DNA from: Tissierellia bacterium
Lineage (GTDB): Bacteria > Bacillota > Clostridia > Tissierellales > Tepidimicrobiaceae
Direction: 5' to 3'
DNA: 33,091 nucleotides
Assembly (NCBI GenBank): GCA_012728075.1
Contig: JAAYFV010000017.1
Location: forward strand, 1-33,091
Below are positions 4,908-10,000 of this stretch, one piece after another (position 1 is the first letter of the stretch; every line of letters starts with the position of its first letter). The position numbers were made by a program, and so were the translations under genes. Under the pieces are notes generated by a model that was given only the letters and a program-made list of their open reading frames with translations, was not told the DNA's origin and did not search any database.

Positions 4908-6440
4908 TTATTTTGCATACTCAATGGCCCTTGTTTCTCTAATGACATTTACTTTTATTTGGCCTGGATAGTCTAACTCTGACTCTATTCTTTTAGCAAT
5001 TTCTCGTGCAGTGTGTATTATTTCATCGTCTGTTACATCATCAGGTTTTACCATTATTCTTAATTCACGTCCCGCTTGTATAGCATATGACTTTTCAATT
5101 CCGTCAAAAGAATTTGCGATTTCTTCTAATTTTTCAAGTCTTTTAATGTAAGCTTCTAATGTTTCCCTTCTTGCTCCAGGTCTTGCAGCAGAAATAGCAT
5201 CAGCAGCTTGGACTAAAACAGCTTCTACACTTTGAGGCTCTATATCCCCATGATGAGCTGCTATAGCATGGAGCACCTCTTTTGATTCTCTATATCTTCT
5301 AGCTAAGTCAACACCAATATCTACATGTGGACCTTCTACCTCGTGGTCTACTGCTTTTCCTATATCATGTAGCAGTCCTGCTCGTTTAGCTACTCTAACA
5401 TCTGCCCCTAGTTCAGCTGCCATGACTCCTGCAATATGGGATACTTCAATAGAATGTTTTAAAACGTTTTGACCATAGCTTGTTCTGTATTTTAATCTGC
5501 CGAGTAATTTGATCAATTCTGGATGTAAACCATGGATTCCCGTTTCAAAAGCTGCTTGCTCCCCTTCTTCTTTAATAATATTATCGACTTCTAATTTTGC
5601 TTTTTCAACCATTTCCTCAATTCTTGCTGGATGAATTCTTCCATCTACTATTAATTTTTCTAAAGCTATTCTTGCAATCTCTCTTCTTATAGGATCAAAT
5701 CCAGATAATACTACAGCCTCTGGTGTATCATCTATTATTAAATCAATACCTGTTAAGGTTTCTAGGGTTCTTATGTTTCTTCCCTCTCTACCAATTATTC
5801 TTCCTTTCATTTCGTCATTTGGTAGATTTACCACTGTTACTGTTGTCTCTGCAACGTGATCCGCGGCGCACTTTTGAATTGCACACGAAATAATCTCTCG
5901 AGCTTTTTTCTCTGCTTCTTCTTTAGTTTGAGCTTCCATTTCCTTAATCATTATAGCAGATTCATGAACAATTTCTTTTTTGATATCATTTAATAATAGT
6001 TCTTTTGCTTCCTCGGAGGTTAAGCCTGAAAGTCTTTCTAATTCTTGTACTTGTTGCTCATATAGTTCATTGACAAGAATTTCCTTTTCGTTCAATTCCT
6101 TTAATTTTTTATTAAGTGCTTCTTCTTTTCTTTCAAGAGCTTCGTTTTTTCTATCGATAGCTTCTTCTTTATGCATTAGACGGCGTTCCAATTTTTGTAT
6201 TTCTGCTCGCCGTTCTCTATTCTCCCTTTCATTTTCAATTCTGATTCTGTGAGCTTCTTCTTTTGCTTCCAGTATAACCTCTTTTTTATGCGTCTCGGCT
6301 TCTCGATTAGCATCTTCAACAATCTTTATAGCTAATTCCTCGGCATTATTAATTTTCCCTTCACCGATGGTTTTTCTTATATAAAAGCCAATTACAATTC
6401 CAACGACGATACCTATAATAGTTATTACAATGTCAATAAT
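4908..6440 (-). CDS. rny: Ribonuclease Y, apparent ATT start
   Basis: RNase Y is the membrane-anchored endoribonuclease that starts mRNA decay in Firmicutes. Read from 6440 the protein has 510 residues, the usual family length. It has an N-terminal membrane helix (about residues 4-20, rich in Ile, Val and Gly), a long charged coiled coil, a KH domain with [10 protein letters not shown] at 213-222, and an HD domain with [14 protein letters not shown] near 355. No ATG, GTG or TTG occurs in frame before TTG at codon 84, inside the coiled coil. An in-frame TAG lies just upstream of the RBS. An ideal RBS, GGAGGTGGG (6443-6451), sits right before ATT ATT, so initiation at ATT (6440, or 6437) is the best reading. 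Starting at codon 84 would remove the anchor. A promoter and structured leader precede it. Confidence 0.93.
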
Positions 6441-6442
6441 GA

Positions 6443-6451
6443 CCCACCTCC
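6443..6451 (-). promoter_or_regulatory. Ribosome binding site that fixes the ATT start of rny
   Basis: On the minus strand GGAGGTGGG is a strong Shine-Dalgarno sequence. Six bases separate GGAGG from the first ATT and nine from the second. The only other starts within reach are out of frame and hit a stop after a few codons. Confidence 0.75.
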
Positions 6452-6517
6452 AGTTCTATTTAGTTTTCAAGTTCCTTTTTCATATTCAAATTATCAAATC
6501 TTGAATAAAAATATAAA

Positions 6518-6531
6518 CCGAGTAGTCTCGG
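6518..6531 (-). terminator. Terminator-like hairpin in the rny leader
   Basis: On the minus strand CCGAG and CTCGG pair around ACTA, followed by the T-rich tail TTTATATTTTT. It lies between the rny promoter and the rny RBS. It could end the upstream ATPase operon, attenuate rny, or both. The stem is short (5 base pairs, four of them G-C), so strength is uncertain. Confidence 0.5.
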
Positions 6532-6544
6532 CCTATAGAGTCTA

Positions 6545-6612: not shown

Positions 6613-7281
6613 TTAGTTAGGGGTTATTTCTTCTATAGAACTTATTGATTCTTTTAAATGGACTCTATAGGCTTTTGTACCAATGGATGAAAGATGATCA
6701 TTGTGGGTTACCATTATAATCTGTCTTTGAAATAGTTCTGATGTTTTTTTTAAGAAATCAGCAACATTATAAATATATTCTTCACTTACATGTTTAGCAG
6801 GCTCATCTAGAATAAGTGGGCCTTCAATCTTTGGTTTATAAATTTCTAGAAAAGATATTCGTAAAGCTAAAGAAATAATATCTACAACACCACCACCTCT
6901 TGATAATTCAGGTTTGGTTTTTATTATATTATCTTCCATTTTAGTTGATACATAAAACTCTGCATTAGGTTTACCATATAATTCTTCGATTTCTATTTCA
7001 AACTCCACATTATTTTCAAATATATATTGTAGACAGTTAGTAACTAAGGACTCTACTTGATGTTTTGCTTGGTTTCTAGCAAACTCTGCAGTACTTTGTA
7101 GGAGTATACTTACTTTTTCCATCAATTGAATCGTGGATTCAATTTCCTGAACTAAACTTTCATATTCTTGTATTTGTTCTATTATTTTTTCTTTTTTCCC
7201 TTGTTCTTTAGAAATATATGATTTCATATTAATTAAGTAGGATTCTAATTCTTCATAGTTGTTTATATTGTCAATAATCAT
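6613..7281 (-). CDS. Rad50/SbcC-like ATPase, C-terminal lobe encoded as a separate protein
   Basis: This 222-residue protein looks like only the second half of an SMC/Rad50-type ATPase. Residues about 10-75 are coiled coil. The ABC signature is SRGGG (127-131) followed by VVDIISLALR, Walker B is GPLILDEP (154-161), and the H-loop is VTHND (191-195). No Walker A exists in it; that motif is in the 480-residue protein two genes upstream. An active ATPase would have to form by association of the two. It starts 4 bases after the stop of the 82-residue coiled-coil gene and ends the set led by the SbcD-like nuclease. It could also be compared with phage gp46-like recombination ATPases. Assignment to the family is firm; the split-complex reading is inference. 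Confidence 0.85.
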   Translation of the reverse strand: MIIDNINNYEELESYLINMKSYISKEQGKKEKIIEQIQEYESLVQEIESTIQLMEKVSILLQSTAEFARNQAKHQVESLVTNCLQYIFENNVEFEIEIEELYGKPNAEFYVSTKMEDNIIKTKPELSRGGGVVDIISLALRISFLEIYKPKIEGPLILDEPAKHVSEEYIYNVADFLKKTSELFQRQIIMVTHNDHLSSIGTKAYRVHLKESISSIEEITPN

Positions 7282-7285
7282 ATAA

Positions 7286-7534
7286 TCACTTCTTTTCTAA
7301 AATATCTTTAGGTAGTAAAGTATTAGCTTTTTTGAATAGTTCATCTATCTCTAAAGTTAATTTTTTGATTTCTTCGTCTAAATTTTCTGGATTTACTCCT
7401 AAACTATTTAGTTCTTCAATTATTTCTGCTTGTTGATTATTTAATTGCTCTAATCTAGCTTCAGCTTTATATTTTAAATTCTTAGCTTTTTCAAGATTAT
7501 CTTTTAGTATATTGAGTTCTTTTTCATAATCCAT
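7286..7534 (-). CDS. Small coiled-coil protein between the two Rad50-like halves
   Basis: I do not recognise a named family with certainty. The 82 residues are almost entirely charged heptad-type coiled coil in two segments. A short linker (LGVNPENLDEE, about residues 45-55) joins them, and the end is LLPKDILEKK. It has no membrane segment, signal peptide or catalytic motif. Its place between the Walker A half and the Walker B half suggests it supplies part of the descending arm of a Rad50-like coiled coil, or a bridge to it. A strong AGGAGG-type RBS lies about 10 bases before the ATG, so it is actively translated. The gene is 14 bases from the upstream gene and 4 from the downstream one. Confidence 0.75.
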   Translation of the reverse strand: MDYEKELNILKDNLEKAKNLKYKAEARLEQLNNQQAEIIEELNSLGVNPENLDEEIKKLTLEIDELFKKANTLLPKDILEKK

Positions 7535-7548
7535 ATTTATTATCCTCC

Positions 7549-8991
7549 TTACTTATAATTATCTATTATTTCATCAATTTTGAGTTTGTCAATAGGGCTA
7601 AAACATACAGGGCACATTTCAATTTGTGATAAGACATCCTTATATTTTATTAAATTTTTATTCAATGTTACTTTAATATTTTCTAGTTTTTTTTCTATAT
7701 TAAGCTTTGATTTGCTAATAGCCTTATATATATTATTGTAATTTTCTAATATTATTACAGTGTTTAATTTATTTTCAAGTAAATTCTTTATATGGATAGC
7801 CTGTTCAATACCTGCAAGCTTATCTATATAAATATTACCAATAGAAATATTTTTATTAATATCATTCAAAATATTATTTAATTGTAACAGTTTTTCGGTT
7901 TTTAAAATCTTTTTTTCAATTATGCTTATACACTGTTGTACCTTCTGAATTTCTTTCAATTTAATTAATATTTTTTTGTTTTCTAATATAGAATTATTTG
8001 TATATTTATAATTTGTACTTAGTTTGTATAACTTGTCAATTTTATTATTGTATATATAGATGTTTTCTAATAGGTTTTCAACCTTGGATGTATTTTCTAA
8101 TTGTTTTAATAAATTAGAATTATGTTTAATTTGGGTTTCAATGTGATTAAGCTTATTGTAATTATTATTCAAATATATATGTCTATTTATTTTTTGTGAT
8201 AACTTTTGTCCTATTGCTTTAATTTTATCAATATCTTTTAATTTTATCAAATAATCTTCTAGTAACTTAATTTCATTATTTAATTTATTTAAGTCATTTT
8301 GCAAAAAAACCAATTTTTCTAATTTTTGCCTATTATTATATATGGATTGCTTGATCTCATCTAATTCTTTAATTCTATTTATTAAATCCTCTAAATATGC
8401 GTAATCTTCAAGATTCACATAAAGAACTTCTAAAGCTTCCTCATAAGATTTTTTCTTTATATTTAAATTCCTTATATCCTTTAAAGTGTCTTTTAAAGCA
8501 TCATCTACTATATGAACACCTACTAGTCTACCAATTGCATTGGCTCTTGTAGAGTTTTTTTCTGAAAGTAAGAAAGGTCCTTCTAATTGTTCTCCAATAT
8601 TGATAGAACTTGTTTGGCCGCTATCTAAGGGGACTTTTCTTATAGAAGTAGCTTCTACAATTTCCTGAGGAATTTGAGTTCCAAAACCTTCAAAAATTTT
8701 TTCCTTTCCATATTGATCATATAAATAATATGAATTTTTGCTTTTACTTCTATATCTTTTTATTTTAGTATTATCACTAAAAATTATTGTTACACTGCAT
8801 TCTCTTTCTCCTTCCCTTATAAAAAAATCGCCAGAAGGCTCATTGTATAAAGCCCATTTTAAAGCTCTGATTATAGCAGATTTACCTTGATCCGATGGAC
8901 CAACAATTACATTTAAACTAGAGTCAAATTCCATTTCTGTATATTTATGAGATTGAAAATTTTCTAAAATAACTTTTTTTATATACTTCAT
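7549..8991 (-). CDS. Rad50/SbcC-like ATPase, N-terminal lobe with Walker A and zinc hook
   Basis: The 480-residue protein begins like SbcC/Rad50: a KKVILENFQSHK strand, then Walker A GPSDQGKS at 31-38. The remainder of the N-terminal ATPase lobe runs to about residue 185, with a possible Q-loop in LDSGQTSS. A long coiled coil of about 270 residues follows. It ends with CPVC at 460-463, the zinc-hook motif of Rad50, and the protein stops 17 residues later. In normal SbcC (about 1000 residues) the chain would turn and return to a signature/Walker B lobe; here that lobe is a separate gene. I chose ATG 8991, with AGGAG 12 bases upstream. The alternative ATG at 9003 touches its RBS and would add four residues. 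The gene abuts the stop of the SbcD-like gene. Confidence 0.85.
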   Translation of the reverse strand: MKYIKKVILENFQSHKYTEMEFDSSLNVIVGPSDQGKSAIIRALKWALYNEPSGDFFIREGERECSVTIIFSDNTKIKRYRSKSKNSYYLYDQYGKEKIFEGFGTQIPQEIVEATSIRKVPLDSGQTSSINIGEQLEGPFLLSEKNSTRANAIGRLVGVHIVDDALKDTLKDIRNLNIKKKSYEEALEVLYVNLEDYAYLEDLINRIKELDEIKQSIYNNRQKLEKLVFLQNDLNKLNNEIKLLEDYLIKLKDIDKIKAIGQKLSQKINRHIYLNNNYNKLNHIETQIKHNSNLLKQLENTSKVENLLENIYIYNNKIDKLYKLSTNYKYTNNSILENKKILIKLKEIQKVQQCISIIEKKILKTEKLLQLNNILNDINKNISIGNIYIDKLAGIEQAIHIKNLLENKLNTVIILENYNNIYKAISKSKLNIEKKLENIKVTLNKNLIKYKDVLSQIEMCPVCFSPIDKLKIDEIIDNYK

Positions 8992-8992
8992 A

Positions 8993-9976
8993 TTAAAACT
9001 CATCTCCTAAACACTTCATTTGAGAGTTAGCTATTCTTTTCAGGGCTTCTTCTTTTACCTCTTGGGAAACGCCTTCTGCATTAGATACTGCCATTAATAT
9101 TTCATTTATTTCTAATTTCTCAAAATTTACTGCAGTATCTATAGATTGTTTAAATTCAAAAAGTCTTTCTGATTTAAATATATGATTTTCTATTTCTCTT
9201 CTATCTAACACCTGTGAACCAGGTTTAGCAGATTTTAATTGAATTAATTCAATATGAATATGGTCACTTAAATCAATTAATGTAACTTTAGGCATTCGTT
9301 CAATTTCTGCTAAACTATTTGTTATCCTTATAAGACTACCAGGATTTACAAAATACTTATTATTAATTTCTACAATACCAAAACCTGAATGATAATGTCC
9401 TGATAGGGTTATATTAGCTTCTGTATCCACTATATCTTCTATTAGTGTATAAGGGATACCTTTAATAAAAGGTTTATCTAATAGCATACCATGTACCATA
9501 TGGATAGAGTAGTCTGCATCTTTAGATACATCTTTTACTAAATAATCAGATTTATCTATTTCATCAATATTATATGTGTAAGACTTACCAGTTAATTGAA
9601 CTATTATGCCATTTTTTTCTAAAAATATTTTTTCTTCATCTCTTATCACTTTGACTACACCTAAGGCATCCAATAAGCCAAGCATAGTTCTATTTATAGT
9701 TTGTGGATTATGTCCATAGATATCGTGGTTTCCTGAAATTATATATATAGGTATTTTTATAGAATTTATAATGGAGGCAAAACGATTTACAATTGAAATA
9801 GAAACATCAGGTCTGTCAAATAAATCTCCACCGTGTAGAAGAAAGTCTATTTTATACTCTTCAATAATTTGATTTACTTCTATAAATTTTCTTTCTAAAG
9901 TTTCAAATAAATTGTCATTTCTATTTTTGGGTGTATTCCCTCTTATATGAGTGTCTGTTAAAAAAAGTAATCTCAA
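8993..9976 (-). CDS. SbcD/Mre11-like metallophosphoesterase (DNA repair nuclease subunit)
   Basis: The 327-residue calcineurin-like phosphoesterase carries the full Mre11/SbcD metal set. This is DTH at residues 8-10, GGDLFD near 48, GNHDIYG near 82, HG in a VHGMLL segment, and GHYHSGFG near 195. A C-terminal capping region follows, shorter than in typical SbcD (about 380-400 residues). Partnered with a Rad50/SbcC ATPase, the family trims blocked or hairpin DNA ends. The start is TTG with an AAGGAG RBS nine bases upstream. It follows recA by about 40 bases with no obvious promoter, so it is probably transcribed with recA and thus induced by DNA damage. The next gene encodes the matching Walker A half of the ATPase. 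Confidence 0.88.
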   Translation of the reverse strand: MRLLFLTDTHIRGNTPKNRNDNLFETLERKFIEVNQIIEEYKIDFLLHGGDLFDRPDVSISIVNRFASIINSIKIPIYIISGNHDIYGHNPQTINRTMLGLLDALGVVKVIRDEEKIFLEKNGIIVQLTGKSYTYNIDEIDKSDYLVKDVSKDADYSIHMVHGMLLDKPFIKGIPYTLIEDIVDTEANITLSGHYHSGFGIVEINNKYFVNPGSLIRITNSLAEIERMPKVTLIDLSDHIHIELIQLKSAKPGSQVLDRREIENHIFKSERLFEFKQSIDTAVNFEKLEINEILMAVSNAEGVSQEVKEEALKRIANSQMKCLGDEF

Positions 9977-10000
9977 TTATTGCCACTCCTTATAAATAAA

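Follow-up and report, generated by a model that had tools for sequence, protein, structure and literature searches.

In a 33,091-nucleotide stretch of DNA from a Tissierellia bacterium (assembly GCA_012728075.1, contig JAAYFV010000017.1; this whole stretch is the window below), four genes immediately downstream of recA very probably encode a chromosomal complex of the Mre11-Rad50 (SbcCD) type. One gene encodes the nuclease (D); the Rad50 ATPase would be naturally split into an N-terminal half (N) and a C-terminal half (C) that assemble the head in trans, and a small protein (mid) would be linked to the arm. An ATPase head formed between two polypeptides had been proposed in a first-pass annotation of this DNA. 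We infer the same, because N and C strictly co-occur, can be encoded at unlinked loci, are joined in N-C fusions besides D-N fusions, and are found almost exclusively in genomes without canonical SbcC.

The four genes and their products

The first-pass annotation was confirmed with regard to the four open reading frames at 6613-9976 (minus strand), their coordinates and their motifs. All genes lie on the same strand with junctions of 1-14 bases, and the features are as follows (residues of N are counted from its first ATG).

8993-9976, minus strand: D, SbcD/Mre11-like calcineurin-type nuclease of 327 residues, TTG start, Shine-Dalgarno sequence AAGGAG at 9986-9991
7549-9003, minus strand: N (Rad50 N-half), 484 residues from the first ATG; N-lobe with Walker A and Q-loop, then arm and zinc hook
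8878-8901, minus strand: Walker A GPSDQGKS, N residues 35-42 of 484
7633-8337, minus strand: N arm, five tandem 47-residue repeats, residues about 223-457, seen from profile self-similarity, arm-length steps and proline phase
7603-7614, minus strand: CPVC zinc hook, N residues 464-467, 17 residues before the C-terminus
7286-7534, minus strand: mid, helical protein of 82 residues with a conserved GVNPEN break; Shine-Dalgarno sequence AGGAGG at 7544-7549, 9 nucleotides upstream
6613-7281, minus strand: C (Rad50 C-half), 222 residues; 80-residue helix and C-lobe
6889-6903, minus strand: ATP-binding cassette (ABC) signature SRGGG, C residues 127-131
6799-6822, minus strand: Walker B GPLILDEP, C residues 154-161
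6703-6705, minus strand: H-loop histidine H193 of C, invariant among C-halves

A second ATG of N, at 8991, yields a protein of 480 residues. This is likely the better-placed start, because AGGAG at 9004-9008 lies 12 nucleotides upstream of it, whereas the same AGGAG directly abuts the first ATG (0 nucleotides). This agrees with the earlier description of N as a 480-residue protein ending 17 residues after CPVC.

Five phosphoesterase motifs (DTH, GGDLFD, GNHD, HG and GHYH), with the metal-binding set present, were read in D. It matched Metallophos (PF00149, 1.7e-18), and its best matches in the PDB were the Mre11 structures 1ii7, 4hd0 and 3dsc (E 5e-4). The match to the NCBIfam model of sbcD (TIGR00619; 9.3e-9) reached 35.4 bits, below the curated cut-off of 77.65. 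By its sequence D is an Mre11-like nuclease.

N was matched by Pfam AAA_23 (5.9e-19) and by phrog_16465 (1.4e-67), a phage family of split length. A profile of 51 N-halves, in which G35, G40, K41, C464, P465 and C467 are invariant, retrieved the Rad50 N-lobe 5f3w (5.5e-15), and its final 68 positions (412-479) retrieved the Rad50 hook structures 6zff (2.7e-5) and 1l8d (3.3e-5). Neither Walker B nor the signature is present in N. Against NCBIfam sbcC (TIGR00618) N scored 15.3 bits in its own genome, below a curated cut-off so strict that it was passed in 1 of 14 control genomes. The single-chain AlphaFold2 model (predicted local distance difference test, pLDDT, 81; predicted template-modelling score, pTM, 0.38) contains about 300 helical residues before the hook and was matched to Rad50 3auy by Foldseek (2.4e-6); the VIA-align rows cover residues 4-196 only, so the fold of the arm is outside this comparison. 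Together, these sequence features identify N as the Rad50 head part with Walker A and Q-loop, followed by an arm that ends in a CxxC hook, and CPVC as a Rad50-type zinc hook with predicted zinc binding.

In C, where Walker A is absent, Pfam gave only SMC_N below threshold, and phrog_15167 (1.9e-59) is again a phage family of split length. G129-G131, D159, E160 and H193 are invariant among 43 C-halves, and their profile retrieved the Rad50 C-lobe 3qkr_B (1e-12). The AlphaFold2 model of C (pLDDT 92.3, pTM 0.75) has one 80-residue helix; it was matched to 1f2t_B by Foldseek (1.0e-8) and to Rad50 9a9j_B by VIA-align (Z 15.1, 165 residues aligned, 3.6 Å). C can be assigned as the Rad50 head part with signature, Walker B and H-loop, preceded by its proximal helix. 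The helix lengths estimated in the first reading for N and C were about right.

The models of N and C match Rad50 lobes best in crystals in which the lobes are separate chains (1f2t/1f2u and 9a9j; Foldseek, VIA-align). In 1f2t/1f2u, the Rad50 catalytic domain, the N- and C-lobes form one head as two polypeptides, as proposed here, and a head of this kind is therefore structurally possible. That pair is a laboratory construct without the arm, whereas the split described here is natural and arm and hook are kept on N.

Recurrence of the split and its relation to canonical SbcC

Of the 150 genomes of the order, 85 (the host and 84 others) have a homologue of C with an open frame of about 220 residues. 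This count omits G066, G071 and a second match in G109, which were rejected as split C because they lie within longer ATPases and match only weakly. The order N-mid-C-rny was the same in all 29 order-level loci read, barring contig ends (L034) and one likely frameshift in N (L036). A scan of named genomes gave 80 loci in Tissierellia, Acetivibrio and relatives, Caloramator, Fonticella, Thermosediminibacter, Fervidicola, Tepidanaerobacter, Mahella and Fuchsiella, and a complete set of recA, D, N, mid, C and rny was present in 51 chromosomal loci. The split system is also carried on plasmids of Alkaliphilus and Bacillus, and N, mid, C and D were present in 25 of 25 phage or prophage contigs (L130-L154). 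The split and its gene order thus recur in relatives of the order, named Clostridia, phages and plasmids, and close relatives of the host carry the split form and not a single fused SbcC. The chromosomal neighbours of the split genes are recA, cinA, pgsA, rimO, rny and spoVS, and no defence island was found there.

Some loci deviate individually. L036 and L071 (Tissierella sp. P1 region) have a frameshift in the N-lobe of N beside intact mid and C genes, either a sequencing error or the mark of a recent pseudogene. A C homologue with four TGA and two TAA codons (G092:C2:89063-89698) is likely a pseudogene in an otherwise intact family. In three phage loci (L037:4053-4625, L147:4151-4675 and L148:6894-7463) an AP2-domain, homing-endonuclease-like gene is inserted between N and mid, and in two phage contigs C is longer by about 90 residues at its N-terminus (L146:7076-7990, L147:5299-6186). 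The SbcD-like gene of Bacillus phage vB_BboS-125 (L037:5893-6873) is unannotated in the public record.

N and C need not be neighbours. In the Acetivibrio group C stands alone between folD and rny, D-N-mid lies beside rimO, and both were present in all nine genomes searched. A single contig of Pseudobacteroides carries both, C near 388 kb and N 1.09 Mb away at 1,474 kb. The two genes are separated by 93 kb in Microbacterium phage Magritte, in which the gene upstream of C was considered as mid and rejected. A 485-kb phage has N, D, mid and C scattered across 8 kb, and a sliding-clamp-like gene separates mid from C. Of 398 Firmicutes genomes 65 have C, and N was present in every one of these; split-type N was found in 66, and the one without C carries its N on a 3.4-kb contig. 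An N match in G343 was rejected as a split form, being a canonical SbcC of 976 residues.

Gene fusions of the kind found here are standard evidence for physical partnership. On five Bacilli plasmids D and N form one chain of 802-937 residues that ends 19-22 residues past CPxC and is followed by separate mid and C. In 8/8 genomes of family f71 there is an armless form, which lacks the hook as well but keeps Walker A, the signature and Walker B intact. Four of the f71 chains read (L190-L192, L211) combine D, N-lobe and C-lobe in 684-783 residues, while in L209 D is accompanied by an N-C chain of 373 residues. A physical nuclease-ATPase complex is predicted, indirectly, from the D-N and D-N-C fusions. 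In L190-L192 the armless chain adjoins an AddB-like helicase/nuclease gene.

For the DISPLACEMENT of SbcC, the same 150 genomes were compared, canonical SbcC being called at E below 1e-20. Canonical SbcC was present in 47, the split form in 85 and both in 2. This near-exclusion gave a Fisher p of 5e-20 by genome and 3e-9 by genus, uncorrected for relatedness. Families f4 and f7 each hold both types, i.e. switches within a family. No canonical SbcC was found in the host genome (98.55% complete), where the matches were SMC, RecN, ABC transporters and the split locus; an AddA-like protein is encoded. It appears that the split complex takes the place held by canonical SbcCD in related bacteria. 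In many Clostridia listed without SbcCD, a split version is probably present under the label of hypothetical proteins.

The arm, the mid protein and armless forms

The arm of N is periodic, with profile self-similarities of 0.57, 0.49 and 0.40 at lags of 47, 94 and 141 residues (shuffle maximum 0.13). The distance from Q-loop to hook clusters at 325 residues, with variants of 231, 371 and 419 (-94, +46 and +94), and in the fused D-N plasmid proteins Walker A and hook are 389, 439 and 486 residues apart. Arm prolines fall mostly at one repeat phase (69 of 110 within four positions, many of the sequences being related), and the helices of the AlphaFold2 model (pTM 0.38) are interrupted in phase with repeats and prolines, at 255-257, 305 and 350-351. 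That model is compatible both with a kinked rod and with folded-back arm helices. While N gains or loses repeats, mid (near 77-92 residues) and the helix of C remain unchanged. As mid and C stay constant while the arm steps by about 47 residues, pairing with mid and C along its full length, as in a normal coiled coil, would not be expected of the arm. The earlier view that the split is not a simple cut of SbcC and that the arm geometry differs is thereby supported and extended to 47-residue repeats and quantised arm lengths.

The mid protein had been described as an 82-residue coiled coil belonging to Rad50. Its length and helical character stood, but its reading as a cut piece of a Rad50 coil is not supported: mid forms a conserved family of its own (phrog_18563, 5.8e-13) with no specific match in a Pfam scan. 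Over 51 loci its mean identity is 0.57, compared to 0.21 for the arm. It was missing from all six armless genomes and found in four of four armed controls. N and C alone are identified as parts of the Rad50 head; mid is a conserved helical subunit in its own right whose occurrence follows that of the arm, and it probably serves the arm, since it is absent with armless forms and present with armed controls. The association of hook and mid is imperfect, as phage contig L155 has a mid-like open reading frame and an N without CPxC.

The proposed mechanism is carried over, in its steps beyond homology, from general knowledge of SbcCD and Mre11-Rad50. N and C would assemble in trans into one ATPase head, and two such heads would sandwich two ATP, with Walker A of one against the signature of the other. 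A dimer of D would sit at the base, below the heads, and cycling and hydrolysis of ATP would control, as in SbcCD, whether it can reach DNA ends or hairpins. Two complexes may pair through zinc by way of the CxxC hooks at the C-terminal end of N. The mid protein may pack on the 47-residue arm modules or join the arm to the helix of C, and the link returning from hook to head would be non-covalent. It is possible, though doubtful, that this is a Rad50 with a modular arm in a stricter sense. Each 47-residue repeat would be one structural module, several mid hairpins would dock along the arm (either one on each module or a set number), and only non-covalent contacts would hold the hook to the C-lobe. 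The arm could then open, exchange or change its length by whole modules, and the armless family would be a minimal Mre11-Rad50, one chain of about 700 residues without coiled coil or hook.

To our knowledge, in all known SMC and Rad50 proteins the halves of the ATPase head are tied through arm and hook or hinge, and how head ATP and distant hook signal to each other is an open question. Here the tie of head, arm and hook appears to be broken in nature, arm length changes in discrete steps and close relatives are armless. This natural series (full arm, shorter, longer, none) would make it possible to test whether an arm, a hook and a connected head are needed.

Alternative explanations, origin and known systems

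Adjacent genes on one strand with such short junctions would also be expected if a canonical sbcC gene had recently been broken by a frameshift or an assembly error. We consider this extremely improbable, and the recurrence of the split rules out a recent break: the same boundaries are found in 29/29 relatives of the order, in named Clostridia, in phages and on plasmids. Furthermore, N and C can be 1 Mb apart, their catalytic residues are invariant, and the joined pieces do not make up an SbcC, as the arm appears to have no matching return strand and mid is a family of its own. The genes also have their own ribosome sites (e.g. AAGGAG for D, AGGAG for N and AGGAGG for mid), which the first-pass annotation had taken as an argument against decay. 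All this identifies a conserved split, judged from comparison of genomes, and neither decay nor an assembly error. C is a separate gene that can be unlinked from N, and C (with mid) might instead act alone, for instance as a regulator or clamp, without completing the ATPase of N. This is very improbable, since C lacks Walker A, N lacks Walker B and signature and neither is a full ABC ATPase; moreover, C never occurred without N in the 398 genomes, and f71 has both lobes in a single chain.

The genes could also be a phage-derived recombination or replication module, with a role like that of T4 gp46/47, that was domesticated in Clostridia and may now do something other than general break repair, e.g. 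phage defence. In the C-lobe tree the phage and plasmid sequences branch deeper, outside the chromosomal clade (nested-node support 0.57-0.76), in a tree rooted on four clostridial SbcC via a very long branch and with a support of 0.33-0.76 at key nodes. In addition, the PADLOC models of LmuB and GajA weakly match the N-lobe. However, the chromosomal copies lie in a core neighbourhood (recA, cinA, pgsA, rimO, rny) and not in a defence island, and they nearly exclude SbcC, so that we regard this explanation as unlikely. A phage or plasmid source of the split system is in itself plausible from the tree. The node that would tell an ancestral from a derived armless form has a support of 0.33.

Several points weigh against a chromosomal Mre11-Rad50-type complex with a head split in trans. 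D falls below the SbcD family cut-off. The models are of single chains, and with a pTM of 0.38 for N the layout of the arm is ambiguous. A role in DNA repair would rest on homology and on the recA neighbourhood. The Fisher tests ignore relatedness, which inflates their significance, and two genomes carry both systems: G061, which looks complete, and G114, a draft of 80% completeness that is split over many contigs. Finally, the host encodes a YhaO/YhaN-like Mre11/Rad50-type pair of 365 and 810 residues (L205:2104-5641, G000:C227), which could cover part of the role; the split locus is thus not its sole Mre11-like system. A complete sbcCD elsewhere together with degraded motifs at the split locus had been named as evidence that would speak against the proposal. 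A separate pair does exist, but it is not a canonical SbcC, and the motifs of the split locus are undegraded. YhaO/YhaN likewise comprises an Mre11-like and a Rad50-like protein; YhaN differs in being a single-chain AAA_27 ATPase of 810 residues, and the host pair is at a separate locus.

With SbcCD/Mre11-Rad50 (E. coli SbcCD 7yzo, archaeal and human Mre11-Rad50) the split system shares the calcineurin-like nuclease, the bipartite ABC head, the CxxC hook and a nuclease-first operon. It differs in that the two parts of the head are encoded as individual proteins, the hook lies at the end of a chain, a small subunit is added, and the arm consists of 47-residue modules that appear to lack an equally long return strand. 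The Lamassu LmuB and GajA defence ATPases gave partial matches to the N- or C-lobe only, with no full-length single-chain match, and in contrast to Lamassu LmuB/GajA the split genes neighbour recA, cinA, rny and spoVS and no defence locus with a partner effector. Phage N, mid and C correspond to PHROGs 16465, 18563 and 15167, which are catalogued apart ('exonuclease' and 'ATPase', mid unknown) and not as one split Rad50.

In the open literature searched no description of a natural split of Rad50 or SbcC was found, the closest being Yoshida et al. 2011 (PMC3175470). These authors described Mre11-Rad50 fusions, in two of which (Bacillus phage 0305phi8-36 and Anaerostipes) one P-loop segment was not observed. 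Fusion of D to the N-part of Rad50 on plasmids and phages is common to both studies. No separately encoded C-half or mid was reported there, whereas we found them beside such fusions on other plasmids. A separately encoded C-half could explain the fusions in which a P-loop segment was not observed. Queries with the D-N fusion found no such phage in the searched collection, which did not include Bacillus phage 0305phi8-36. Jumbo phages are said to carry SbcCD almost universally, with the split unmentioned (PMC7824862). As far as this literature shows, a widespread Mre11-Rad50 variant with a predicted two-polypeptide head and a dedicated third subunit has so far been undescribed.

Downstream of C, one weak further feature was noted:

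6512-6537, minus strand: terminator-like hairpin 3' of C, from a consensus scan (2 sites in the region versus 1.4 expected by chance)

The adjoining rny gene (about 6430-6450 of the window, minus strand) has no in-frame ATG, GTG or TTG ahead of the membrane segment of RNase Y. Almost all of the 13 sequences compared share a GGAGGTGCATCGTTATTGA-like stretch, which suggests ATT (or GTT) as start codon, compare infC, and a ACTTGAAAACTAAATAG-like stretch upstream of it is conserved as well.

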